NCBI GenBank assembly: GCA_036244855.1
Contig: BQKZ01000036.1
Span: 154,795 to 218,794, forward strand
Source: Temnopleurus reevesii
Lineage: Eukaryota; Echinodermata; Echinoidea; Temnopleuroida; Temnopleuridae
DNA: 64,000 nucleotides
Reading direction: 5' to 3'
Shown here: piece after piece, positions 6,955-54,403 of the stretch
How positions within the stretch are numbered: the stretch's first letter is position 1
Layout: the number at the start of each line of letters is the position of its first letter
The notes under the pieces: generated by a model
The model's input: the letters and a program-made list of their open reading frames with translations, nothing else
Told to the model about the DNA's origin: nothing
Database searches by the model: none
Translations under genes and position numbers: made by a program

Positions 6955-7705
6955 ACCATTCAATCAATCGATTCCATAACCAATCAGGATATCAATCAAA
7001 CCCAGCACATTTCAATCAATCAGCCAATTATTCACCACAATTCAATCAATAAACAAATCATATCCAGAGCAATTCAATCAACCAATCATTCAGCAGAATT
7101 CAATCAATCCACCAATCATTCACCACAATTCAATCAATCAACCAATCATTTTTAACCCAATTCAATCAATCAGCCAATCATTCAGCACAATTCAATCAAC
7201 CAACCTATTATTTCCATCACAATTCAATCAATCAACCAATAATTCAGCAGAATTCAATCAATCAACCAATCATTCAGCAGAATTCAATCAATCATCCAGC
7301 CATTCATCACAATTCAATCAATCAACCAATCATTCATCACAATTCATTCAATCAACCAATCATTTCCAACCCAATTCAATCAATCAACCAATCATTCATC
7401 ACAATTCAATCAATCAACCAATCATTTTCAACCCAATTCAATCAATCAACCAATCATTTAGCAGAATTCAATCAATGAACCAATCATTCAGCAGAATTCA
7501 ATCAATCAACCAATCATTCAGCAGAATTCAATCAATGAACCAATCATTCAGCAGAATTCAATCAATCAACCAATCATTCAGCAGAATTCAATCAATCAAC
7601 CAATCATTCATCACAATTCAATTAATCAACCAATCATTCATCACAATTCCATCAATCAACCAATCATTTCCAACACATTTCAATCAATCAACCAATCATT
7701 TCAAC
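6955..7705 (+). repeat. 30-bp minisatellite, about 25 copies
   Basis: Unit close to ATTCAGCAGAATTCAATCAA + TCAACCAATC. Left copies are diverged; copies at 7450-7650 are nearly identical. Because 30 is a multiple of three, a repetitive open frame (period-10 peptide FSRIQSINQS) arises; no start context or splice sites support coding. Confidence 0.9.
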
Positions 7706-7739
7706 CAAATTATGAGACATGATCATAAATCACAATGAA

Positions 7740-12981: not shown

Positions 12982-13125
12982 TTATACCAAACTACCGTCC
13001 CTGACGTCCCTGACGTTTGAAGAGGTACGGGTGGGAGATGTCTCAGAGATGGGTGAATTCACAGACCAGCTATCAAGCAATCGTCGTATCAGTGATCGTC
13101 TGTTTGGGGCATTCCTCTTCAGACT
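12982..13125 (-). CDS. BCL2L11-like: BIM-like gene, terminal coding exon
   Basis: Acceptor gtctttatattacag|AGTCTG at 13126/13125, then 47 codons and TAA at 12984-12982. It is in phase 0, exactly as the BH3 exon requires. The encoded tail begins SLKRNAPNRRSLIRRLLDSW and ends Ser/Thr-rich (SPISETSPTRTSS...GSLV). Vertebrate BIM ends in a hydrophobic membrane-targeting segment; here only a short basic amphipathic stretch (NRRSLIRRLLDSW) is seen, so membrane binding would have to be peripheral. Candidate poly(A) signals on this strand are ATTAAA at 12915-12920 (only about 60 nt past the stop) and AATAAA at 10077-10082. A less likely alternative is that this is one of several alternative last exons. 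Confidence 0.8.
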   Translation of the reverse strand, partial: SLKRNAPNRRSLIRRLLDSWSVNSPISETSPTRTSSNVRDVRDGSLV

Positions 13126-15353
13126 CTGTAATATAAAGACAAACATTAGAGGAAAACTGAAATTAATCATTAAGTTCCATAAGAAAATATTAACAAATTT
13201 CCACTTTTTTTCACTTCTCTTTCAGAGCTGTATTTTTACACGTTTCTTTGGTTCTTTTATTTCTAAACTCCCTCACACTCTGACATGCAACTATTATGAA
13301 AGGGGTAACAGCTATTTTTTTTTATTGTGGTGGATGATCACCTTTGTGAACTTTTCAACAATGGAACATTAAAAAAAATTCTCAGGGTTAGCATGATTTC
13401 AAAAATTAAGCCATCAGCCATTACCAAGTTACCATATCAACAAACAAAGACATGATACAAACAAAAACCAGCTTCGAGTTTAACCTTGTCAACCCTCAAT
13501 CATCTTTTAGACCCATTCTATTTCAAGTCTATTCAAAAGCATTAGGCCTGTAAATCACAGTTTCACAATGTAAGCATGATATTCCTATACAAATATTACA
13601 AACAATAACCATAAAGAGCAGATCTTTTTTTATTTTGGGCATTCAATTAACACAGCTAGAACGCATTTCAAACATAAAAGGGTGCAATGAACTAGGAAAG
13701 ATTCGGGTCAGAAATTGTTGCATTTGTGTATCATCTAAAAATTGTTTGTATCACTTCAATTTGAGCATGGCATTTAAAGTATATTCCCATTCACCATTGA
13801 AAAGGTAATCATTTTGAATATATAAGCTGGCAGACACCTTTTATTTATTGATTGAGAGTGAAAATGCAATTCAAATTTTGGGGAGCATCCAAGGACTAGA
13901 AAACAGTTTAGAAGTAAAAACTATTACTACATTGATGGAAGTGGTGAAAACAACGTACCCTTTGGCCTTCAAATAACGCCACAAACTCATCTCCAATCCG
14001 CCTTAGTTCCCGTCCAGTAGCGATCTCCGGGGCAACGGGTCTCGCTGGAGCAGAGTTGGCTCGACTTCGACGGAATGCCACAACATCCGGAAGGGAGTCT
14101 TGTAATGCTTCATCACCTCTCACTGGTTCTGGTGGAGGGACAGACTCCTGTTCCGCACTACCCTCGGAGAAGAAACGTGTTCTTCTTGATTCTGAAAGAT
14201 ATAAATGATACATGAAAAGAATTTATAATATATGACAGCTATGATCTTTCAAGAATTAATTGGTACATTGAAATCAGAATACGCATCAAAAATATGCAGA
14301 CATGACTACATATCTAACAATCATAATTTCAGTTGCAATTATAAAGTAAATATACTCTCTGATGAGATGAAAGGTCAGTGTTAAGTGTCTATTAAAAGAT
14401 TACACATTCAATAATAGCATATTCCAGTGCTATTAATACAACAGACGTACTTCCAGTTATCTCCATATTTGATCTTCCATCCACTGATATACAAGCGCAA
14501 ATAGGTGGCCGTAACTTCATCCTGCTAAGCAATAAAAACACTACCTCACACCGGTAGAATCATAAACTAAAATGACAATGATTCTAGCCTCGTCCTCCAA
14601 CTACCCACACGCAGCCTATTGTTACACCCCCACGCCCTTCTACCAATGGTGACTTATGACTAATCATTGGAACAAAAATAGCCCCATTACACGGAGTGCC
14701 CAAGACGAGCGTAGAGTGGACGTGGCCAGCGCACCTTTTGACTCTGCTCCCATTGTTAATCGATAGTGTGTTGGATCCAGTGGCATCACCACTGAACCCC
14801 TCTCCTCGCCAGACCAAATCTTTGCGTCTGACAGGCGACGCAGAAAAAGTTCAGTAAATCCAATTGTCTCTGGTAAATTCTCCGCAAGACGTCTAGGAAA
14901 TGATGAAATATTTACCCCGTAAGATAAATCCAAGGCAGTTCCAGGTTCTTGAGTCGAGAGTTGAGGTAAAAGTTTGAACCACAAGAAATCAGTCACAGTG
15001 TGATTGTTTTGGAAGTAGGCAGGTCACTAGACGAGAGGGTACTCCTCTTCCTGCCACTGTTACAAGTTTAACTGAGGTGACTCACTGTGAGTTGGTTCTG
15101 TAGTATTGTTTTGGTCCTAGTGTCACAACAAAAAAGACCTAGGCTTTATGTCATTCCCAGGGATAAGGGGAATCCCTATGATGCAAGAAAACAAGCCCTA
15201 TCACACCACAGTTAGCCCTCACCTGTATTCTACACACTATATCAATAGGGATTTCAAATGCCTGTCCAAACTTGCCCTCATTTCTCTTGCACAAAGACCA
15301 TGCAATAATTGATCAAACATCAAACGAAGGAGGGAAGCGATTGAAAGAGGGAA

Positions 15354-15398
<45 letters not shown>

Positions 15399-18300
15399 AG
15401 CAGCCCAACAAAAGGATGAAGAGCAAAAAACATATTGATCCACTCTTATTATGCAAATGAACTCATCACCACAAGGTTTTACTTTTTTCTATTACCAATC
15501 AAATAAACAAAGATCATTAAAAACTCCGCTGTATATATTTCCTGGCTCGTTCCAAGCTTCCCATTGGTCAATACTTTTCACCTTCATACACACCTCTACT
15601 ATTTCTGAGAGGTGTTTACCTGCTGTGTGTAGTCAAGTCTGTCAATCAATAACATAAGCCTAGTCTTACATGCAGTCCTTCTTTTTGAAAATATTTGCGC
15701 TAAGTCATAACAATTTTTAACAATTTTCTAACAATTGATTAGATGTTTAAGATTAATTCTTTTTTTCCTCTCATGAATTTTGCTATGTAGGTTATTATTT
15801 TCCTCATACAGTGTTATAAGTTTACTTTGCTATTGTCTAATTGAAAAGACTACCATTAATATTGTGTTGTGGTATAGCAAAGCGGATAAAGCCGTTGTGT
15901 ACGAATACAACTGGATGATTTAGCGATATCATGGTTGGGCTGCCTGACTCATTAGCATACAATGATGCATGGAGACAGATGGGCGTGACCCCGCCCCAGC
16001 CTCTGCTCCACTGGAAGACCAGAGTACTACCAAACACTCTACCAATCAACTGTGACCTACTTCAGCAGGATGAAAACATCCTCTTTCTCTCCTGCTCTTC
16101 TTTTTCCGTCTTCCTCTCAATCTGTCCCATTCAATTTGCCTGTTGATTCATCTCAACTAGTTGATCAATTATTACTTCATGTCAGAAACTGATCAGGAAC
16201 TTTAGAGGAAGTGAATTAACCATCTCAAAGCTAAAAACATCATTAGTTTTTCCACTTTTTTTAATGAGAAAAAAATGGGAAAGTGGTTCTTTCATTGACT
16301 AGAAATGCACTTACTTATTCCTTGTATCATTTCAGATACTTAGAGTGCCGCATGCATTCAAATTTGGAGAGCCTTATGAGGGAGAAGTGGGCCATCTACA
16401 AATTTTTTTTGTTGAGGTTCCTTTGAATACATGGAAGATACCCTTCAAAATAGCTAGTTGCCAGATACAGCAGGAATGATAAAATAATCATTTCATTGGT
16501 GCGCAAAAGCTCAAAGGACTGGATAAAACAATGGAACACACTAGAATATATTTGCTCCAATAAAATCATAACAATCAAATACCTAAAGATTAAGACAAAG
16601 TAACTTCCTGCCCTGTATACCTGCAAGTTTATTTTCAAAGTCAACTGTGCTTAACCTACCTGTACAATGGAACTCAATGACAATACTCAAATAAACCCTG
16701 CCTAAAAATTCTGTTTATTTCAAAATTTAAAAAAAAAATGAACACAGAAAAGAAGCAATCATGAAAATGTTATTGCTCTGTTTTGCTATTAGATACAAGA
16801 GACCCGAATATACAATGCAAATGTCCTTATATTCAAGGTGGGCTCGAGCTTGCCTCAACAATATCAACACAGCTTCTCCATAACAAGTCTGGAGTGAATG
16901 TATTTACATGTGAATTGGCGGACGCAGAGAGCACTTTAAAAGCACTGTGTTGATCAATAACAAATAATACCTTCCTGCTATTATGACCATGTACCCCAAA
17001 CACGAGTCACAGCTCCAACTTCTATTGATTACCTAGTCTAGTACAATAGTAGTCTCCGTATCAATAAAAGGACTTTGATTGCAGTGTGGGCCAACTTCGC
17101 ATTGCTCGCAAAGGCGTTGCCTACTGAATACCTAGATTTGTCAGAAGCCAAATATTCCCTCTTCTGTTTTGAAAATGCAAACTAAATCACCAAGCCATTT
17201 TTAGTCGATTTCATTGAGCAGAATTATTGATTTTCTATGATATGATGCATACCACAGACTGCTGTCATAGTCTGTCTGCATATTTCAACGATTAATTTCA
17301 TACTTGTGATGATTAACTACTCAGACAAATTCCTTTAATCTGAGTGTATTTGGAATGACAGTCCTGCAATGATGTGTCTTGTTTACAGATGATGTAATGC
17401 CTACATGTATCTTCATTGCGGGTGTAATTAATTAATGAGGAAATGTGATTTTCCCCTTTCTTGGCATTAAACCAAAGAGGAGTCATGATCAAACTCTAAA
17501 TGTCTCATCCGAAGTGAGGTTTCATCAAACACTGTTTCAGAAGTGACTAGTCATGATTGAATAATGATTAATGCATACCATCATTAATTAAAATAGGTCA
17601 GACACATTGTAACTTTGTTACTAATGTGAGTTTACAGCAAACACTGTTTATTTTGTAGATGGAATAGTTGTACTATTTCTGAGACTCCTGATATTGTTGT
17701 GTGGTTTGATCTATTTGAAACAAAAGCCCAAAGGTGTGGGGGGGGGGGGGACATGATTTCTGTACTTGGATGTTTGCCAAAAAAGAATTATTTGCACTTT
17801 AGATAGGTAAATATGATAGCTTAAAATAGAAGTTAAGCTTCTTATTCTTGGATAAGCATCACCTAAATCCAAAACACAAATAGCCTTGACCTTGCAAAAT
17901 AAGTTAAACTAACCCTGTTTGCGTTGTCTAATGATAGATGTAGAAATTAGATTGCTCTAAAAGATCAAAGGGTTAATTGATACCACAAGGAGCAAAATTT
18001 GTTGGAAAAAGATTATATTATGAAATAAAAAATATGATACCCATCTTGTTTTGTATGAATTTAAGTTCCATTGCGTTCATTTATGGTTCTGCTTTTTGGT
18101 ATACTCCCTACGGTATTTTTATGAAGTGGAAATAAAAATAATGACCTTAATAAATCATATAGTGATTGTAATAAAAGACAGAAATTTTATCAAATATCCT
18201 TACTCATCAGAGCCATTCATTTATCAAGCTACATGTATAAATAACTCTATGACGAAGGCATCCATTACCAATTGAAAGTACTTTGACATTTGAAATGTAA

Positions 18301-20300
18301 CCATATTTTGAGAATTTGAACTCATAACATAAATAGGCTCGTCCCCTTTTTAAGGTCAAAATAGATGCAAGAAAATCTAATATAATAAGAAATAATAATA
18401 ATAAGAAAATCTCTAAAACGTCACAGAATGGAGATAAAAAGAGAGAAAAAAAAAAACGACTGTCCCTGTCATAACAAAAACTACTTCAAGGAGAGAGGGG
18501 AGGGGGAAGGGGGCAGGGGCAATAGGAGTGTTGAAGGGAGAAGTCTAGGGGAAATTTAACTGGTTGGAGAAAGAGTGAAGATGAGGGAGATTTTGGTGAA
18601 GCAAGAAAGTGAAGGATGAAGGGAGAAAGTGAAGGATGAAGGGAGAAAGTGAAGGAGGGAGGGAGAAAGTGAAGGAGGGAGGGAGAAGAGAGACACAGAC
18701 AATAGAATAGAGAATGAGAGTTTTGAGCAGATTCAAAATATAATAGACCATCAGGTTGAGATATAATAATTTTGAAGAGTAAATCATTCATGCAAAAGGA
18801 TGCCATCCCCACTGCATCCTCATTCAATTCCCGTGAGTATCTACAATGTACAGAAGCATGATACAATTGCCAATTTGAAACTCGACAATTTGATTAGATG
18901 AAGCATCGATCGCAAATCGGTACTCAAGATCAGATGCAATAAAAGTCAAATATACCTATTGTTAGTTCCATGGTTTAAATTCAACCTGCTGGAACCATTT
19001 CGATCTTCATGAGTACAATCTCATTCCTGCCATCATCCATTTTCTATGCAAATTACAAATATTTCTTGTGTACACTTTCAACATAAAAACAGATAAATGT
19101 ACAGTAATGATCTATATAGACAAATACAAACTAGTCTTCGCACGGCACCCCTTGGAATCATTGCACTCAATAGGAAATTTAAAAAAAATCCTAAGTATCA
19201 AATATAACTCCATTTGTAGTATCCTGGAGTTGAGAGTGGATCAAGTAGCCCATTTGTTTGGTAAGGATGATGCATTACTCAACCAGTACCAGTTAAGAAA
19301 AGTAGGTCATGTTTGTTGACCTCAGTGCTGCATGCGTTCCGATTCAGGTGACAATGCACAAGCGATTGAAATTCAACAATAGCTTTCAAGACGGTTTTGG
19401 TTCTTTGAATCTGCTCATAGCTGGTTTCTTCTTTTTTTAAATTGAAAAATCCAATGAATGGGTAGAAAGGCAAAAGAATATTTTGTATTTCATTCCAAAT
19501 GTTTATCGTATTATCAGTCAAACCCTTGACCCATGCCTCAATAAAATTGACTTTGGGAATAGATTTTGTCAATGAGCATACCTTTGGTAGTGTTTACATT
19601 GTTTTTATGAGAACTTAAATTTTCTCATCAACTTGGTTAACATAATGGTATATAATAAACTGAGTGTTGAGAACATACCTTCACAGTATCTTTGCCTCCT
19701 GAGTCTCACTTGTTCCTGAGGAGTCATAGTTGAGTCTGCTTCTGTCTCAAACAGTCGTAAACTAATGGACGTCTCCAGCAGGACAGGCGAGAGGGGCGGA
19801 GTCTGTGTTGAGGTACTCTGGAAGAACCGCGGCGCAGACCCGTATCCCGATGACATCGGAGAAGTCTCTTCCGGCGAAGAGAAACGGTAGAAATGACTGA
19901 AGGAGCTACTGCGGGTTGGAGTTCCAATGAAACCACCTGTCCCTATTGGACTGAGTCTCGGGATCGGGATGGGTGGGGACGTCCCAGTGGTGATGGGCGT
20001 CTCTGGACGAGAGTTCGTCATGTCGAATGGCATGTTATCTCTAAAGACGTCCAGCTCTTCATCAATGATCTCATCATCAACACCACTCTCATCTTCTGCT
20101 GCAAGCTTCATTTTCATGCTTGCTTGGTCCATCTGATCAGGTTCAACGATACGGGCAGAGGGCGCCCCAGGGCCGTTGCATACATCAACGATCAGCTTCC
20201 TGCACGACTGATCGCCACTCCTACCTCTACTAAACACGGACACCTCCACGCTGTTGATACCACGCAGTGGAGTGCTTACATGGATTTCAAGTTCACTCAT
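12982..20300 (-). CDS. BCL2L11-like: BIM-like BH3-only protein, complete spliced CDS (3 coding exons, 332 aa)
   Basis: Joined coding sequence 20300-19679, 14191-13959 and 13125-12982 (622+233+144 = 999 nt including TAA). Phases agree at both junctions (1, then 0) and every boundary is GT-AG. Domain order: acidic N-terminal region (about 66-95), Ser/Thr-Pro cluster (98-172) with SSGYGS at 150-155, LC8-type TQT motif at 165-167 (STSTQTPP), 14-3-3-like RANSAP at 251-256, BH3 helix at about 263-283 with core LRRIGDEF at 270-277, and a basic tail with SLIRRLLDSW. Human BIM has the same order: an RSSSGYFS stretch, KSTQTP, then PEIWIAQELRRIGDEF. BH3-only proteins insert this helix in the groove of pro-survival BCL-2 proteins and activate BAX/BAK; LC8 binding ties BIM and BMF to motor complexes. 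No BCL-2 fold (BH1/BH2) is visible. BMF also has TQT, but its BH3 differs more. The C-terminus lacks BIM's hydrophobic anchor. Orthology is inferred from motifs and order, not from a tree. Confidence 0.85.
13959..14191 (-). CDS. BCL2L11-like: BIM-like gene, BH3-domain exon
   Basis: Acceptor tatctttcag|AATCAAG at 14192/14191; donor CAAAGG|GTACGT at 13959/13958. Enters in phase 1 and leaves in phase 0, coding residues 208-285. The BH3 segment PEIATGRELRRIGDEF aligns without gaps to human BIM PEIWIAQELRRIGDEF, with ten identical consecutive residues from Glu to Phe. The invariant Leu270, Gly274 and Asp275 are present, with Ile273 and Phe277 at the h3 and h4 pockets; the h1 position is Thr266 instead of Ile. 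RSRANSAP at 249-256 just before the helix fits both an RxRxxS basophilic kinase site and an RxxSxP 14-3-3 site. Placing the BH3 on its own exon, separate from the LC8 motif, resembles vertebrate BCL2L11. This exon alone identifies the family. Confidence 0.92.
15356..15394 (+). repeat. GA microsatellite
   Basis: Uninterrupted (GA)n in the intron before the BH3 exon. Confidence 0.95.
18601..18690 (+). repeat. 20-bp purine-rich tandem repeat, about 4 copies
   Basis: Unit GAAAGTGAAGGATGAAGGGA and variants with GGAGGGAGGGA; all purines with a few T, inside the BIM-like gene intron. Confidence 0.85.
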
Positions 20301-20317
20301 AATACAGCAACAGATCT
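19679..20317 (-). CDS. BCL2L11-like: BIM-like gene, first coding exon (start codon, LC8-binding motif)
   Basis: The exon begins at 20317, after a pyrimidine-rich acceptor (ttctctttgacag, minus strand), so an untranslated 5' exon must exist upstream. Coding starts at ATG 20298-20300 (MSELEIHVST), 17 nt inside the exon. An in-frame ATG further upstream lies in the intron and is not used in this model. The exon encodes residues 1-207 plus one base and ends at a consensus donor, GAAG|GTATGT, at 19679/19678. Visible features: a hydrophilic, probably disordered chain; an acidic stretch, DESGVDDEIIDEELD, at about 70-84; many Ser/Thr-Pro sites (TSPP, LSP, GTP, SSPEETSP, TPPLSP), which would suit proline-directed kinases; SSGYGS at 150-155; and TQT at 165-167. 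ERK and beta-TrCP control are known for vertebrate BIM-EL; here they are inferred. Confidence 0.85.
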
Positions 20318-21029
20318 CTGTCAAAGAGAAAAAAAATAGAACAGGAAGAATGTTATGATGAAATAATTGCAAGTGTTTTTTTTTCAAAGAATGCGCAATG
20401 AGGTTAGTTCCTTTCTGTCATAAATGTGAATTCTTTCCGAAATGATACTTGTCTCTGCTCAAATCTCTGTTCAAGAAGTATGGCACTTAAACCAGAAAAC
20501 TGTAGTACTGCGGTCACTTACTGTTGTCATTTTCCAATGATGTCGCAGGGGATTTCATTACACAAGGAAAAAGAAAGTACTTAAACCATCAAAACAAATT
20601 CATCATGCACATGTAATTACCATCATGAGGTATTATTGAGATGCCATAAGCTCAGATATCAAGTTCAACATTGCATAGGGTGATTAGTGCGTGATAGAAG
20701 TTCACATTCATAGTCACGACCGATAAGAATATGATGAAAGATTCCCATGAGTTACAAAATTCTCAAATTTCCAGCTCAAATGCATACATGCTCTTTATAA
20801 TGCCCTTCCCATCACTGAGACTTGTGCAATGGTCCAATATTGCATTAATGTGATCAATTTTCACCCCTTTTCAACTGTGACGTAGATGGTATACTCCATC
20901 TGAATATTTATTTTCTTTCGTTTCTATTAAGCTCTAGCCTTGGAATTCATGTCTGGACTTGTCCATGTTGGGCACGAGCCATCATTGTTCTCAGAGTGTG
21001 ACTACAAGATCATGAACTTTTAGCACACA

Positions 21030-21955
21030 ACTACAATTCTTTCTACTACTGGCAAGTAATGTTCAAATTATGTAAACAGAGCTCAATGAACCTGCGGTTT
21101 TATTCTTTTTATAAAACTGAAACATAATACATATAATAAAGTGGATATAAAGGCAATGTTTTATTTATAATCCTCCCTAAGTTTGTGTAACAAATGAAGG
21201 CAGACAAGAAACAAGTATACTTTAGAGAGACAAAAATTTCCCCATTTCTCAACCAATTCGTCCATGAATATTTCATAGAAAATGACACCAAAACATTGTC
21301 TTATATTTTAGTTTATCAAACATTGTACACAATCTCACTTTGGGTAGACTGCAATTTGACATGAAGAGCTCATAAATCCCGGATTGCCCAGCTCGCATCA
21401 CCAAAACATAAACTACCGAGCAAAGAAAGAACATCTGATTGTAAATGCCCTGGACCTCATTTCCTTTGCGTGCTTCCCTTCTTGACCCAAACCGGTTGGC
21501 ACAAATCCAAGAATCTTTTGTAGTTTGGAGGTGAAGTTATCAAAAAGGTTTTATCAGGTTGCTTTTAGCTATTGTCCATTATTCCCCTAACTTTTGAAAA
21601 GATGGATGAAAAGATTTGTATGAAACCGCAGTGAAGTTTTAAAAAAAGAGGCAGAACCATTAAATTTGCGTACATGTTCATAACAAAACCATTATATTAT
21701 TCTGACAACTTTGATTTTTAATTCTCATTTCATTGTTGCGAAAAGAAATCACATGACCCATACAAGTATACATGATGATGATTAGCTTCCTTGAATATGG
21801 AATACTAAATCTGGTTCGTAGCTGGATGGACAAGTGTAAGAAGAATCAACAAGATCAAAATATATTATTTGGTTTAAGGTTACAACACTCCAGATTATAT
21901 TTCCAATGCTGAATGTTTGTTATGTCCTGTCTTATGCAAAAGATGATTACAGTAC
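21030..21955 (+). repeat. Copy 1 of ~0.93-kb duplicated block (probable haplotype duplicate)
   Basis: Nearly identical to 24834-25766, starting ACTACAATTCTTTCTACTAC and ending GATTACAGTAC, with scattered substitutions and small indels (for example AGAGAGAC versus TATAGAGAGAC). The left end of the second copy is set by the gap. Similarity is at the level expected of alleles in a highly polymorphic marine animal. Confidence 0.85.
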
Positions 21956-24259: not shown

Positions 24260-24833
24260 NNNNNNNNNNNNNNNNNNNNNNNNNNNNNNNNNNNNNNNNN
24301 NNNNNNNNNNNNNNNNNNNNNNNNNNNNNNNNNNNNNNNNNNNNNNNNNNNNNNNNNNNNNNNNNNNNNNNNNNNNNNNNNNNNNNNNNNNNNNNNNNNN
24401 NNNNNNNNNNNNNNNNNNNNNNNNNNNNNNNNNNNNNNNNNNNNNNNNNNNNNNNNNNNNNNNNNNNNNNNNNNNNNNNNNNNNNNNNNNNNNNNNNNNN
24501 NNNNNNNNNNNNNNNNNNNNNNNNNNNNNNNNNNNNNNNNNNNNNNNNNNNNNNNNNNNNNNNNNNNNNNNNNNNNNNNNNNNNNNNNNNNNNNNNNNNN
24601 NNNNNNNNNNNNNNNNNNNNNNNNNNNNNNNNNNNNNNNNNNNNNNNNNNNNNNNNNNNNNNNNNNNNNNNNNNNNNNNNNNNNNNNNNNNNNNNNNNNN
24701 NNNNNNNNNNNNNNNNNNNNNNNNNNNNNNNNNNNNNNNNNNNNNNNNNNNNNNNNNNNNNNNNNNNNNNNNNNNNNNNNNNNNNNNNNNNNNNNNNNNN
24801 NNNNNNNNNNNNNNNNNNNNNNNNNNNNNNNNN
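24260..24833. other. Assembly gap (574 Ns)
   Basis: An uninterrupted run of N. Long open frames that cross it are artefacts. The flanking duplication suggests the true distance may be meaningless. Confidence 1.
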
Positions 24834-25766
24834 ACTACAATTCTTTCTACTACTGGCAAGTAATGTTCAAATTATGTAAACAGAGCTCAATGAACCTGCG
24901 GTTTTATTCTTTTTATAAAACTGAAACATAATACATATAATAAAGTGGATTTAAAGGCAATGTTTTATTTATAATCCTCCCTAAGTTTGTGTAACAAATG
25001 AAGGCAGACAAGAAACAAGTATACTTTTATAGAGAGACAAAAATTTCCCCATTTCTCAACCAATTCGTCCATGAATATTTCATAGAAAATGACACCAAAA
25101 CATTGTCTTATATTTTAGTTTATCAAACATTGTACACAATCTCACTTTGGGTAGACTGCAATTTGACATGAAGAGCTCATAAATCCCGGATTGCCCAGCT
25201 CGCATCACCAAAACATAAACTACCGAGCAAAGAAAGAACATCTGATTGTCAATGCCCTGGACCTCATTTCCTTTGCGTGCTTCCCTTCTTGACCCAAACC
25301 GGTTGGCACAAATCCAAGAATCTTTTGTAGTTTGGAGGTGAAGTTATCAAAAAGGTTTTATCAGGTTGCTTTTCGCTATTGTCCATTATTCCCCTAACTT
25401 TTGAAAAGATGGATGAAAGGATTTGTATGAAACCGCAGTGAAGTTTTAAAAAAAGAGGCAGAACCATTTAATTTGCGTACATGTTCATAACAAAACCATT
25501 ATATTATTCTGACAACTTTGATTTGTTATTCTCATTTCATTGTTGCGAAAAGAAATCACATGACCCATACAAGTATACATGATGATGATTAGCTTCCTTG
25601 AATATGGAATACTATATCTGGTTCGTAGCTGGATGGACAAGTGTAAGAAGAATCAACAAGATCAAAATATATTATTTGGTTTAAGGTTACAACACTCCAG
25701 ATTATATTTCCAATGCTGAATATTTGTTATGTCCTGTCTTTTTATATGCAAAAGAGGATTACAGTA
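24834..25766 (+). repeat. Copy 2 of ~0.93-kb duplicated block, begins at the assembly gap
   Basis: Direct copy of 21030-21955 in the same orientation. Its first base is the first base after the N run. After the shared GATTACAGTAC it continues into CTCATTACCC, whereas copy 1 continues into an LTR. Confidence 0.85.
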
Positions 25767-28700
25767 CCTCATTACCCCCCCCCCCCCAATTGCTCTCATT
25801 GCTTATGAACATGTACATTATCCCAATCCAATCCACTCCTTCTAAAAAATCACAACAACCAACAGGATGAATGATGATGATGACATGAACAAGAATCATG
25901 TTCAAGACCCATGGGTACATAACATTTATGATGTAGGGTAATACAACACCAATTTGGCATTGTGAGCCTGTTTACGCTTCTTGTCATTGCTTGATCACCT
26001 ACCCCTATCACACCTATGGAGCATCTCTGCATTACAAAAATAAATAATCAAACGAATCATGGAAGAATTTTTGCATTTGAACTGATCTTGCTGCTACAAG
26101 TAGATCATGATGCTGATGTTGAAATACACTGTACAATGGACAATTAGTTGTGAAAAGTATGATACATGTAGACTAAGATCTTCATGACCTGATGTAAAAC
26201 AGAAGACAAGTGGCAGTGGCAACTGATCAAACTTCATTCATTCATTTAAGATTAGAAGCTTGAATTGTTGTTCATGCAGGTACACAGAGTGGTGTAAAAT
26301 GGAGAAAACAAGGAGATTTGTGTATTTGCTTCCAAGTCTCTAGCCTACAGCAAAATATTGTCAATCATCCGCAGCATTAAAGTTCAAACTTGACTTTGAC
26401 ATTAAGCATGCGAGTGAGCTTCTTTCACTCCAGTGCATAGATCACTCCGCATCTGGACTCCACTGTGACAAGTGAAGCTCACTGTCACGATGCCAAATTT
26501 GTGAAGACAGACAGAAGACGCAAGAAAGAGGGTCGCCAGCCTTACGAGGTGAAAACCCCATGCAAGGCACGCTCCTCACACTCTCCGTCTTGGAAGGTGT
26601 ATTCTTCAAAACCTTTTTTTTTGCTGTTTTTCGGCTCCAGACAATAACAGTGTGAGAGCTGTAGGGGGCATCGATGGGGTCTCCCTGTCAACAATCCGAC
26701 CTGACAGCTGCCACTTCCCAGGGTAGATGTGAAATCGGAGGTTTATGTCCAGCAAAATCTATACTTTATAATGTTTTGGGGGACCACTCGGCCCATTCAA
26801 ATATTGGGGGGGGGGGGGGGGGTCTCATTATAACATGCATTTTCCATAGGAGAGTGATTCCATAGACATAGTATAATGTTTGGCCAATTTTTATCTCCCG
26901 CCCCCTTATAATACATGTAGGCTCAATGAAAAGTATACTGTTTACAACAAATGCAGGGACATTTTGCAACACACTTAAATTAAATAAATTATTTTATGTA
27001 TATACGTGTATAAAACTTATTTTTCCAATTGTTCTATCAGTATAGATCTGAAGATTGTTCATAGCAAACAAAAAATAGACCTGCACCAAACTTGAAAAAC
27101 ATCATAACACATCTGAGCACCCAGGGTCCTTCTATTATATCCAGGGGTGATAAGAGGAAGGACTAACTAAAAGAACGTCTGACTCTCCATTTCTCTTTGT
27201 CTGAAAGTCTTGCGGTCAGACCAAGGACTCTCAAGGGGTAACCCACAAAAACAAGTTGAATGCATGGAAGGAAACACCCCACCTCACCGTAACGCGCTAA
27301 CAAGGAAGTATATCTCACTGATCTTACAAGTCAATTTGACGAAAAACAAATCCCTCGCTAAAAAGGGGTGACAAACAAGTTTGAACAAATTTAGTGATAA
27401 AAAGCTGCTTACAGAGTTAGGTATTTTTTTCTTATAGAAGGTATTAATATGTGACCAAAGTTATATTCATGGAGGACAACATGATAATTGCATGTCAAGT
27501 TTACAACAGCAAGTAAGAAAAGGACACTAAAGATTATATTTACGTCTTAAAGTCAATTGACGGGATTCTTTTCCTGATCTGTCAACGATTCTTCAATCAT
27601 GCTGCTTTCTCAAAAATCAAACATATAGCCTACATCATATCCGTCAACACAAACAAATCACAATAGATGCAAAATACAATTATCAATATAAGTACCAATC
27701 CACATGTGAAACGGTAAAAACAAAGGGGGGAAGGCAAGACAGACAGGCATAAATGGAGAAGAGGGGATATAAGGGGGATATTTACTGGATGCTATTCTTT
27801 TATACACCCCCCATAAAAAAATCAATTCTGTGAGTGTCTAGACTGGACTGTTCTGCAATGTTTGAAAAGAGGACATCTGTCTTCAAGACATTAAATAGCC
27901 CCATAGGAATACAAGCATCTACATGTACAAAACAGATTACCTGTCTTTTTAGGCCAGACAAAACATGGCAAAGAAGAACACTTGATAGTCTTTTTGTTGT
28001 GATTGATACATGAAGCACTATCATCAAACAGTTAGTGTGGTTTGAAACAGGATAACAAAAGTTCACAAATCAATTACATGACTTTCCTGTTGATCAAAGG
28101 GAAGCATTTATTACAATACATCTTAAAAATTGTAACTGAAACATGCACAACTTGTATGAATAAATCGATCTCAATCATGTATACCTTCCGTGATGATAAT
28201 TACATTTGTTCAAAATTTTAATTCATCATAACAAAGAATTAAATATTGGGGTTAACCAACTCATCAAAGCAGATCAAAATCAAATCTTTTGACACACATA
28301 TGTCATCAAGAGGGATGTGGTGATGATAACTACTGACCGCAAAATTAATGACTTCTTTAGTCAGCTGAGAAAGAAATAAACACCATAACCCAACAATAAC
28401 TCTTCACAAAGCCATCAGCTGGGTTATTATGAGCTCCACTGATGCAGGTATTGAAACCATAAATCATACAATGCTGTTTACTAGATTATTTGTCTCCAGT
28501 CTGAAAAGTCTGAGAAGTATGACCCACATGTCATAATTTTTCCTTTTTGAGGGGTGGGGGTGGGGGGGGAGGGGGTAGGAGCTTGGTCTAAAAAAGGTAA
28601 AAATCATTTTCTGACACTTTACTGGTACCTAGCAACAAGTCTAATTGATCACTCTCCTGAGCAATGATTCTTCATGTGATACCCTAAGGCTATACTCAAT

Positions 28701-51500: not shown

Positions 51501-54403
51501 ACTTTAAAGGTAAGCGCATCATTTTCAAAAATCCATAAACATTTACCCTTACACTATTTATTTAGTAAGATTTTATATTGCTCTTTATTGAGTGTAATGG
51601 TTTTGTCCAGGCAAGGAGCGATGTTGATCCAATACTAGTATTCAATGTGTTGGATTCTATTTGTATCGTGGTATGGAAATTATTTCTATTTATACGGAAT
51701 GTATAATTTATATGTAATTCTAGGCTGGTAAATTAAAAAAAGATTATGAAACACAAAGCACAGATTACTGATATTACCTGGGCTCATAAAGGGATGTATT
51801 TTGTCTTATAAAAGGGGAACTTCACCCAGACATTGATGCACTCTCAGTGAATAAAGAAAAATACAATGATCAAACTGTGAAAATTTAAGTAAAATCTATT
51901 CAAAAGTTATGAATTTTCAAAGTTTTGATTATAAACCCTCAAATTGGCAACGTACAGGCACAAAATGGCTGCCAACATGGAGAACTCTCCATTAACTTTG
52001 TACACAGAATTTCACATTTTCTTCTTTTTCTGGAAAAGTAGACAATAAATCAACAAAATTCATTCCGAAATTTATGCATGCAGAATAAAAAATGTCCATA
52101 TCATACTTGAAGAGAAAAGTACAATTTTGTCTACTTTTCTAGAAAAAGAAGAAAATGTGAAATTCTGTGTACAAAGTGAATGGAAATTTTTCCATGTTGG
52201 CAGCCATTTTGTTCATGTATGTTGCCAATTTGAGGAGCCCATGAGGGGTGTAAATCAAAACTTTGAAAGTTAATAACTTTTGAATGGATTGTCGGATTTT
52301 GCTCAAATTTTCACATGGGTGAAGTGCCCCTTTTAATAAGTACACATATGTACATGAATACTTGAAGATATATCAAATTTGCAGTTTTGTGAATGATTAA
52401 AAAATTATCTCTATTTTTCTTCTTCTTTTTCTTCGTCTTCTTCTACTGTTTGCTAGGAGGGTTGCTGGCAGGCCGCTACCAGGTGATTAGTGTACTTGGC
52501 CGTGGGAACTCGTCAACCATCCTCCTGGCCCAAGACACATTCAGACCAGGTCTCTATGAAGTAGCAATCAAAATACTTAAACCAGAATATTTCAGGTTGG
52601 GATATCAGGTAAGAAATTCTTTATTTTCAAATGACGTGGCAATGTTTTTACTTTGAACTCATTTGATTGATTATGGAATAAGGCACAGTATTATTTTTTT
52701 TAAACAAGTAATAATAGAGAAGTTATTTAACACTTTATTTTAGATACATACACACACTAAATAATGTATTCTAATATATTCTATTCTATCGATTGTACCA
52801 TGAAAGCCCAGTAGTTTCTTTCATTTCAAAATGATTTAAAACTACTCATTAAATATCACATATACCATTGACTTTATATACAATTTGTACTGAATTTGTT
52901 AGCGTTTCATCTTTGAATGGAAATGAAAAAAAAAATGTTTTAAAGCAGAAGTTGAAATTGATGCAGGTTGTAATCAAACATTGGCTTACATTATGAAGAA
53001 AATGCTAAAACCATGACAATTGTAAGAAGCAAAAATACAAGTATAAAATACATACTGTATGTTCTTTTCTTTTAGGAGAGCCACCTTATTGCAGAACTGA
53101 ATAAAGCAGATATCCACAACTTCTGTGGCATAGTGAAACTATTGGTAAGACATCTCTTTTACATGTGTTATATGTAAACAAAAATATGCTTGTTCTTGTC
53201 ACATCTTGTGTTTTACAAGTTATTACATATAGACTTCCATAAACCACAAAAAGTGCAGGTAAATCTTAATTCTATTTCTGGATGGGCTATTTGAATTAGA
53301 ATAAATATTTATGTCAGACTCACATACTGTTTACCAAGCACTTGAAACAACCTTATCATTCTAAATGTACTTCCGCTTGGACAGCTCGAGATTTCTCTTG
53401 TATTTGCAAGCCTGACCTTTCAGGTTTGGTAGAGCATGCATGATTGACACAGATAGTAGTCAACATATCTTTTTACTTCTTCAAAGAGTTGGGTCAATAT
53501 GCCAGCCTGAGGCAACTTTTGTTTTAGATAGTGCAAGGCACCATCCCTCACACAATCAAATAGTTAAGGACATTTTTAATCAACCCCATACCCTCATTAT
53601 AGTCCTCAATACTTGTAAGTATATGACTGAATATATTTTAATTATTATCATTATTATATAATTATTTTGCAAATTCAAAGCAGTTACAGTTTAAGCAAAG
53701 GATACCAAGATACAATAATTAGGCATAGAATAAATAAGAAAGACCTGCATTTGTCTTGAGAGGGCTGCCACGGCGTGGAAAAGGAGAACACAATCTCCAT
53801 AATCCGTAGGTTTTCCATACCAACCCCTCAAAACAAATGCAGTAAATATATAAATGACATTGATCAGATATGTGAGGCTGGAAACATTTGTTGTCGTTTT
53901 TGACGATTTCAAAATAATAATAAATTTCCAATTATTTACATTTATGTGAACCAAGTACATTATACCTAATTGTAACACTGCTTCTGCATATTTACAGGGT
54001 AACTTCATGAAACTTCATCAAACTTTTTTGTCTCCACAAAGACACGTGTAGACAGATATTTGGAAATTTGACTTATTTCCACCTCATAATGATTTCTCTA
54101 TCATAACTTAATAAATCATTAGATATACAAGAATGCATGTAAAGAAATAGATATGCATGGAGGAATTCTTTGTAAACATGCATAATTCACCCAATTGCTG
54201 AGATGTAAAATGTGATAAAACTCTTCGTTTTTAATTGAATTTCAATCTTTACTTGAATTTCCATCTTTAAAAAATTCAAATTTTAATCTTTATTTGTATT
54301 TTAGAACACTTTCACTCTTGGCTCATTCTTCTGTATGACCTTTGAACTCCTGGGACCACTCCCCCTGCATCAAGTTTTCAAGAAGATCACGGAAAAGCCA
54401 GAG
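48511..54403 (+). CDS. DYRK/CMGC-like protein kinase, 5' part of gene (6 exons, 181 aa, continues past window)
   Basis: Exons 48511-48566, 50717-50832, 51459-51509, 52457-52608, 53076-53144 and 54305-54403 join in frame (phases 2,1,1,0,0,0), all with GT-AG ends, giving 181 residues. Residues 1-74 are a basic/polar extension. From residue 82 a kinase N-lobe follows: glycine loop GRGNSS (89-94), VAIK with Lys113, alpha-C Glu126 in ESHLIAELNKAD, and gatekeeper/hinge FELL with Phe161. Spacing and the alpha-C/hinge residues resemble DYRK kinases, whose gatekeeper is also Phe followed by E-[ML]-L. The usual third glycine of GxGxxG is Ser94. The catalytic loop (HxD) and DFG are not in the window, since no matching exon is seen to 64000. 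The subfamily is unresolved; activity cannot be judged. Confidence 0.75.
49769..50283. mobile_element. MITE with ~40-bp terminal inverted repeats, TTAA-flanked
   Basis: The left end TTAAAGCCCAAGTAAAGTTT is mirrored at the right end (AAATTATACTTGGGCTTTAA), and the inverted similarity continues for about 40 bp (TTTGGTAAA, TGAATATT). TTAA is present at both ends, which would fit a piggyBac-type TTAA target duplication. It lies in kinase intron 1 and encodes nothing. Confidence 0.7.
50717..50832 (+). CDS. Kinase gene exon 2 (N-terminal extension)
   Basis: Acceptor ttaatctgtag|TAATTC; donor GATGAAG|GTAAAG. Enters in phase 2, leaves in phase 1. Encodes NNSPGKWQPPPKKHCIA, then a Gly-rich VTGGLGDIYTKLESGWHSKDE stretch (given here in two parts), a conserved-looking but unrecognised segment before the kinase domain. 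Confidence 0.75.
51011..51115. repeat. Hairpin-forming inverted repeat
   Basis: ACGTAATACGGGAAATATCACC (shown as ACGTAATACGGGAAATATCA plus CC, 51031-51052) is perfectly mirrored at 51076-51097, and the outer GTTGCACCCTG is mirrored by CAGGGTGTAAC with a short mismatched bulge. Arms of about 40 nt flank a loop of about 22 nt. In kinase intron 2. It could be a small MITE remnant or a transcribed hairpin. Confidence 0.75.
51459..51509 (+). CDS. Kinase gene exon 3 (short linker exon)
   Basis: A 51-nt exon between acceptor tttttattaacag and donor TTTAAAG|GTAAGC, phase 1 to phase 1. Encodes YSKCINKDNFFQPNFK, which leads into the kinase domain. As a symmetric 51-nt exon it could be skipped without a frameshift. 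Confidence 0.72.
51810..52334. mobile_element. Fold-back MITE with >200-bp inverted arms
   Basis: Left arm 51810-52043 and right arm 52130-52334 are reverse complements over nearly their whole length; ends AAAAGGGGAACTTCACCC and GGGTGAAGTGCCCCTTTT. Inner landmarks such as AAAATGGCTGCCAACATGG and ACTTTGTACACAGAATTTC occur on both arms in opposite orientation. The left arm has about 45 extra bases near its outer end. Spacer about 86 bp. Sits in kinase intron 3, ending about 120 bp before exon 4. Confidence 0.85.
52457..52608 (+). CDS. Kinase gene exon 4 (glycine loop and catalytic lysine)
   Basis: A long polypyrimidine tract (TTTTTCTTCTTC...) precedes the acceptor tttgctag|GAGGG; the donor is GATATCAG|GTAAGA. 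Encodes GGLLAGRYQVISVLGRGNSS and onward to YEVAIKILKPEYF. Tyr82-Gln-Val is beta-1, GRGNSS the nucleotide loop, and VAIK holds the ATP-anchoring lysine. Confidence 0.85.
53076..53144 (+). CDS. Kinase gene exon 5 (alpha-C helix)
   Basis: Acceptor cttttcttttag|GAGAGC, donor CTATTG|GTAAGA, 23 codons in phase 0. Encodes ESHLIAELNKADIHNFCGIV, then KLL. The first Glu aligns with the alpha-C glutamate of DYRK kinases (E-V-R-L-L-E-L-M-N-K). Confidence 0.85.
54305..54403 (+). CDS. Kinase gene exon 6 (beta-4/5, hinge)
   Basis: Acceptor tttgtattttag|AACACT, donor CCAGAG|GTAAGT, 33 codons in phase 0. Encodes NTFTLGSFFCMTFELLGPLP and then a basic stretch LHQVFKKITEKPE. Gatekeeper Phe and hinge ELL are visible. 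This is the last exon of the gene in this window. Confidence 0.85.

Follow-up and report, generated by a model that had tools for sequence, protein, structure and literature searches.

A probable BH3-only gene of the BIM/BMF/BAD group, with LC8-type and BAD-type motifs, in the echinoid Temnopleurus reevesii

The origin of the vertebrate set of BH3-only proteins is an open question. In vertebrates, BMF carries an LC8-type motif N-terminal of its BH3. The human BIM, BMF and BAD genes lie close to BUB1, BUB1B and PLC-beta genes. Human BAD carries an RxRxxSxP site, which we take to be Ser99, placed 15 residues ahead of the BH3 leucine, and a second serine, presumably Ser118, lies inside its BH3 core. 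Here we describe a gene from the echinoid Temnopleurus reevesii. It lies in a stretch of 64,000 nucleotides (positions 154795-218794 of contig BQKZ01000036.1, or C36, in the 558-Mb assembly GCA_036244855.1) that is called the window below. Judged from its sequence, the gene probably encodes a pro-apoptotic BH3-only protein of the BIM/BMF/BAD group, apparently in single copy, with BIM as the closest member.

The best-described system for comparison is human BIM. In this protein, Ser93, Ser94 and Ser98 form a beta-TrCP phosphodegron (SSGYFS), and Thr116 lies in the sequence DKSTQTP. Phosphorylation of Thr116 by JNK, within the dynein-binding domain, takes Bim off microtubules. Among the isoforms, BimS has 108 amino acids and BimAD 80, and truncated forms end in LEK or GIFE (PMC4695108). 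From these lengths, exon E5 should encode 31-32 residues and the E4/E5 junction should lie right behind the BH3. Likewise, the degron should belong to E2, since it precedes DKSTQT.

Candidates outside the vertebrates have been proposed as well. Starting from Bim, Bad and Bmf seeds, Banjara et al. 2022 collected probable BH3-only proteins of deuterostomes (PMC8998228). The echinoderm candidates come from S. purpuratus (373 amino acids), A. planci (350) and S. japonicus (118). They are predicted to be disordered and have the BH3 on a single exon, and confirmation by experiment is called for. The article also gives hemichordate and amphioxus candidates, and it considers BH3-only proteins potentially present in Lophotrochozoa. 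For molluscs, two further articles report that a BH3-only homologue was not found (PMC5550854, PMC8917759).

The gene in the window consists of three minus-strand exons (Table 1). Joined in frame, they encode exactly 332 amino acids followed by a TAA stop; both junctions are GT-AG, in phases 1 and then 0. The initial annotation had proposed this join and had placed an LC8-type motif and a BH3 on separate exons. Both statements agree with what is found, STSTQTPP lying in exon 1 and ELRRIGDEF in exon 2. It had also called the protein complete, which is less certain, given a possible cassette exon in intron 1 and an implied further exon upstream. An acceptor lies 17 nucleotides 5' of the ATG, so that at least one additional 5' exon is expected.

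Table 1. Features of the BH3-only gene, in positions of the window
Feature	Position	Strand	Basis or remark
Coding exon 1	19679..20317	minus	AG 20318-20319, ATG 20300, GT 19678-19677; residues 1-207 and base 1 of codon 208
SSGYGS, residues 150-155	19836..19853	minus	spaced as the human BIM Ser93/94/98 beta-TrCP phosphodegron SSGYFS
STSTQTPP, residues 162-169, LC8-type with Thr167-Pro	19794..19817	minus	compare human BIM DKSTQTP, Thr116
Candidate cassette exon, 93 nucleotides, phase 1-1, DAKIWSGEERGSVVMPLDPTHYRLTMGAESKE	14735..14827	minus	splice scores; in intron 1
Coding exon 2, BH3-bearing	13959..14191	minus	rest of codon 208 through residue 285
RTRFFS, residues 211-216, first RxRxxS site	14166..14183	minus	motif
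RSRANSAP, residues 249-256, RxRxxSxP Akt/14-3-3-type	14046..14069	minus	placed like the Ser99 site of human BAD
BH3 core ELRRIGDEF, residues 269-277	13983..14009	minus	motif, PF08945, predicted helix at residues 267-282
Coding exon 3	12982..13125	minus	residues 286-332 and stop; weakest-supported of the three
SLIRRLLDSW, residues 296-305, in exon 3	13066-13095	minus	translation; no hydrophobic anchor

Splice sites were scored with approximate matrices and ranked against all AG and GT dinucleotides of the same strand. The acceptor and donor of exon 1 (10.6 and 9.2 bits) fall within the best 0.2% and 0.5%. For the acceptor of exon 1 and the two donors the rank is within the top 1% of strand sites, and for the acceptors of exons 2 and 3 within the top 4-5%. 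Coding signal was ranked by generic codon preferences among 4169 open frames of at least 25 codons in 264 kb (the window and a further 200 kb of its contig), with the low-complexity filter off. Exon 1 ranks first (80.1 bits) and exon 2 eighth (33.3 bits). A coding model trained on exon 1 also backs exon 2, with a score of 29.5 bits that only one of 270 stop-free overlapping null stretches equals. The three-exon locus is very probably a real gene.

The BH3 core is identical to that of BIM. Within it, L270, I273, G274, D275 and F277 fill the key positions (the h2-h4 hydrophobics, the small residue and the invariant Asp). The strict pattern LRR[ILMVF][GSA]DE[FLM] has a single match across all six reading frames of the window and none in 20 mononucleotide shuffles; a loose pattern occurs 8 times, against 16 expected. 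The profile of the BIM BH3, PF08945 (Bclx_interact), has a cut-off of 25 bits. The whole protein scores 24.6 bits on it, exons 2 and 3 together score 26.5, and the BH3 exon reaches 27.9 in a search of the genome. A chance origin of the core was rejected on the uniqueness of the strict pattern, its absence from the shuffles and the genome-wide score above the cut-off. PF00452, the BCL-2 domain, is absent from the three Pfam families listed for the protein at E values up to 10.

For pairwise comparison, the human BIM, BAD and BMF sequences were checked with Pfam, and BIM also by the residue numbers of PMC4695108. Against BIM, BLAST gives 35.0 bits (E 6e-7), and the Smith-Waterman score of 82 is reached by none of 2000 whole-protein shuffles. 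BMF was rejected as nearest relative: its best BLAST E value is 1.8, and 524 of 2000 shuffles match its score. A phmmer search of the PDB places Bim BH3 peptides on top, but weakly (E 0.11 for the whole protein, 0.033 for exons 2 and 3).

AlphaFold2, run on the exon 2 peptide as a single sequence, predicts helices at 235-240, 244-252 and 267-282, with a mean predicted local distance difference test (pLDDT) of 76.8 and a predicted template modelling score of 0.26. Only the helix at 267-282, which holds the BH3, is of high confidence (pLDDT 96 over the block 269-278).

Exon 1 contributes two motifs in the order found in BIM. In all six reading frames of the window, STQTP and SSGY.S are each found a single time. 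The looser LC8 pattern [KRSTDE].TQT occurs 5 times, compared with 3.7 expected. When the exon 1 peptide was shuffled 100,000 times, TQT arose in 5.0% of the shuffles and SSGY.S in 0.04%; a stricter LC8 pattern came up in 0.59%, and [DS]SG..S with TQT at most 25 residues away in 0.02%. The patterns were picked after the sequence was seen, so these percentages flatter the case. The stretch from degron to LC8-type motif has no match in the PDB at E values up to 10, and no relative turned up among viral contigs scanned with the peptide of exon 1.

The exon plan resembles coding exons E2, E4 and E5 of human BIM (PMC4695108), the third exon being a weakly supported prediction here. The last junction lies 8 residues past the BH3 phenylalanine; for BIM the distance would be 7 residues, assuming 32 codons for E5.

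The gene appears to be single copy. Searched against the genome at E values up to 1, the protein matches its own three exons only. With PF08945, two matches are listed, of which the BH3 exon is the better (27.9 bits as above, E 0.0016). The other (17.3 bits; L011:1357-1650, minus strand, contig C748) was rejected as a second BIM-BH3 gene, since the exon proves to be one of O-fucosyltransferase 2 that contains LRDIGDEF.

Possible partners are encoded in the same genome. PF00452 matches six places (L001-L006), five of them above the cut-off. The first, L001, contains NWGR (BH1) and WINKQGGW (BH2) and matches chains of Bcl-2-like 4, Bcl-xL and Mcl-1, with a best E value of 5.5e-16. L002 and L006 look like near-duplicates, and unknown bases interrupt L006.

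Several results weigh against a BIM-like protein or against part of the gene model. Exon 3 is the least certain part, because its codon scores give little or no coding support: 8.8 bits by generic preferences and -0.4 bits by the model trained on exon 1, the latter equalled by 74 of 1163 null stretches. It also encodes no hydrophobic tail. Its best 19-residue mean is -0.11, compared with 0.75 for the tail of BIM, so that membrane targeting should differ; within the whole protein, hydrophobicity peaks in the 19-residue stretch that begins at residue 170 (mean 0.63). In the BH3 itself, the h1 position is Thr266, which may weaken binding to the groove. Neither Bim_N (PF06773), on which human BIM scores 69.9 bits as a control, nor BMF (PF15185) matches the protein at E values up to 10. 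When the nine-residue core is masked in exons 2 and 3, equally good scores come from 242 of 3000 shuffles for BIM, 2327 for BAD and 2828 for BMF. Since the core-masked similarity is not significant, what homology can be detected resides in the BH3, and the rest of the case in motif order and exon plan. In the whole-protein search of the PDB, unrelated Cdc48 chains reach E values of 0.12-0.14, on a par with the Bim peptides. Finally, LRDIGDEF in O-fucosyltransferase 2 is a natural false positive, showing that BH3-like cores exist outside the family. According to the initial annotation, the protein reproduces human BIM. This goes too far in view of the missing Bim_N match and hydrophobic C-terminus, the threonine at h1 and the result of masking. 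Its broader claim of a BIM-type BH3-only gene is supported in part by the BIM core, the LC8-type motif and the BCL-2 family genes in the genome, but not by similarity to BIM beyond the core.

Part of the evidence recalls BAD rather than BIM. One explanation is that the protein is an undivided counterpart of BIM, BMF and BAD, in which an ancestral LC8 tether and an Akt/14-3-3 switch stood together before they were split among the vertebrate paralogues. This special case of membership in the BIM/BMF/BAD group is somewhat unlikely. The RSRANSAP site lies 16 residues N-terminal of the BH3 leucine, and GRELRR and DEFVxxF around the BH3 are BAD-like. RxRxxSxP occurs within 30 residues ahead of the core in 0.56% of shuffles and anywhere in exon 2 in 1.5%, although this motif, too, was chosen post hoc. 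In the alignment of the BH3 GRELRRIGDEFVALF with the BAD sequence GRELRRMSDEFVDSF, 11 of 16 columns are identical, compared with 10 of the same 16 for BIM. The next register, which includes the upstream PEI, nevertheless favours BIM with 12 of 16 columns, and the position of the BAD core serine is occupied by Gly274. The BAD profile PF10514 scores 16.7 bits on the whole protein and 20.2 (E 9e-4) on exons 2 and 3, where the match spans the RSRANSAP site to the BH3, but its cut-off is 28.2. Genome-wide, the BH3 exon is the sole match among those listed for PF10514, although it stays below the cut-off with 17.7 bits and E 1.25; this search scores the best candidates only, so a divergent BAD could escape it. 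Of the 14 genomes used as controls, one, that of a bacterium, also gives a match to the profile. BLAST against BAD gives 28.9 bits (E 4e-5, 17 of 34 residues identical), and the Smith-Waterman score of 67 is reached by one of 2000 shuffles. On its own, the stretch of 30 residues N-terminal of the BH3 is matched as well by 428 of 5000 shuffles for BAD and 2094 of 5000 for BIM, and the stretch C-terminal of it by 700 and 675 of 5000, respectively. The pre-BH3 stretch suggestively resembles BAD more than BIM, with an alignment score that is not significant. The weak predicted helix at 244-252 overlaps RSRANSAP, which is a mild argument against a fully open site there.

Another explanation is that a BH3-only protein arose independently and acquired its LC8-type and phosphorylation sites as convergent short linear motifs. 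The lack of significant similarity to human BIM, BAD or BMF outside the core fits this idea, as do the frequency of TQT in shuffles of exon 1 and the near-expected count of the looser LC8 pattern. On the other hand, motif order, spacing and exon plan are similar to those of BIM, and the last intron lies within about one residue of the position deduced for BIM. Independent origin is unlikely. The locus could also be no BH3-only gene at all, but an unrelated protein, or a set of mis-joined exons, in which a BH3-like core arose by chance. Such a core is present in O-fucosyltransferase 2 of the same genome, and exon 3 is without coding support. Set against this are nine residues as in BIM, a PF08945 score above the curated cut-off genome-wide and the fact that exons 1 and 2 score as coding; this explanation is very improbable. 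The preferred reading remains a BH3-only gene of the BIM/BMF/BAD group that is closest to BIM.

If the motifs work as their counterparts do, a BH3-only protein of this kind could be controlled at several points. The Ser/Arg/Pro/Glu-rich composition suggests that it is disordered. STSTQTPP would park the protein on LC8, and phosphorylation of Thr167-Pro by a MAPK/JNK-type kinase could release it. Once phosphorylated, SSGYGS might mark the protein for beta-TrCP and turnover. Phosphorylation of Ser254 in RSRANSAP by an Akt/RSK-type kinase could lead to sequestration by 14-3-3. When free, the BH3 helix (267-282) would enter the groove of pro-survival BCL-2 proteins, with Asp275 opposite the BH1 arginine. 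Occupancy of the groove would then unleash BAX/BAK.

The candidate cassette exon in intron 1 has a summed splice score of 17.7 bits, compared with 8.9 for the next in-frame candidate of that intron. Its inclusion would give a product of 363 amino acids. It has no homology support, and including it brings no gain in Pfam. A likeness to BMF was rejected, as 1926 and 3910 of 5000 shuffles are equally good and the Pfam score does not rise.

Elsewhere in the window, exons of a DYRK/CLK-type protein kinase lie on the plus strand at about 52459-52608, 53076-53144 and 54305-54403. They match DYRK2 chains (E 7e-9) and, below the cut-off, Pfam Pkinase (E 2e-4). Possible further exons, picked out by eye and without a Pfam match of their own, are at L024:3505-3783 and L028:9070-9171; with them the kinase gene would exceed 110 kb. 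Directly upstream of a kinase exon, 51893-52290 is about 78% identical to its own reverse complement. The segments 21030-21955 and 24834-25767 are copies with 98% identity. The second starts where a 574-base N gap (24260-24833) ends, and the pair is perhaps an assembly artefact. A repeat array at 7003-7711 holds an open frame of 252 codons for an Asn/Gln/Ser/Ile-rich peptide. Pfam returned a single weak match below the cut-off for ten chosen open reading frames of the window, and again for ten segments, all from the 200 kb around it, that were chosen among 190 retained ones. With Rfam, nothing matched at gathering scores.

The novelty of the gene is modest, because echinoderm BH3-only candidates from Bim, Bad and Bmf seeds already appear in PMC8998228. 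To that extent the novelty seen by the initial annotation is reduced. Noteworthy is that one BH3-only-type protein combines control motifs of the LC8 type with motifs of the BAD type, the latter a suggestive feature that the annotation had missed. LC8, dynein and DLC1 are not mentioned in the main text of PMC8998228. A literature search that linked the dynein light chain to Bim and BH3-only proteins in echinoderms found no paper, and among the papers found for BCL2L11 in echinoderms no title concerns a BIM-like gene in this phylum.

Provided that the gene is genuine and its motifs prove conserved, the tethering of a death trigger to the cytoskeleton would be older than the vertebrates, and control of the BIM type and of the BAD type may originally have shared one protein. 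The gene may hint at how the separate trigger proteins of vertebrates descended from one ancestor. A tentative and rather doubtful proposal is that a single non-vertebrate protein, joining BIM's LC8 tether and phosphodegron to BAD's Akt/14-3-3 switch, is the pro-orthologue of vertebrate BIM, BMF and BAD.

Compared with known systems, the protein shares with vertebrate BMF an LC8-type motif upstream of the BH3. It differs from BMF in its BH3 core and has no Pfam or meaningful BLAST match to it. With vertebrate BAD it shares an RxRxxSAP site at nearly the same distance from the BH3 leucine (16 residues, compared with 15 in BAD), GRELRR and DEFVxxF. Unlike BAD, it has IGDEF instead of MSDEF with the BH3 serine, an LC8-type motif and a PF10514 score below the cut-off. 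The echinoderm candidates of Banjara et al., obtained with Bim, Bad and Bmf seeds and compared by their published description, are alike in their predicted disorder and in having the BH3 on one exon. Those of S. purpuratus and A. planci are of similar length, whereas that of S. japonicus has just 118 amino acids. Vertebrate BIM (BCL2L11) is shorter (198 amino acids compared with 332), and it alone has the Bim_N match and the hydrophobic C-terminus; the threonine at h1 and the additional RxRxxS sites ahead of the BH3 are found only here. The two proteins are alike in the core ELRRIGDEF, in the PEI ahead of it, in the order of SSGYxS and then STQTP, and in the division into exons for the N-terminus with the LC8-type motif, the BH3 and the tail.

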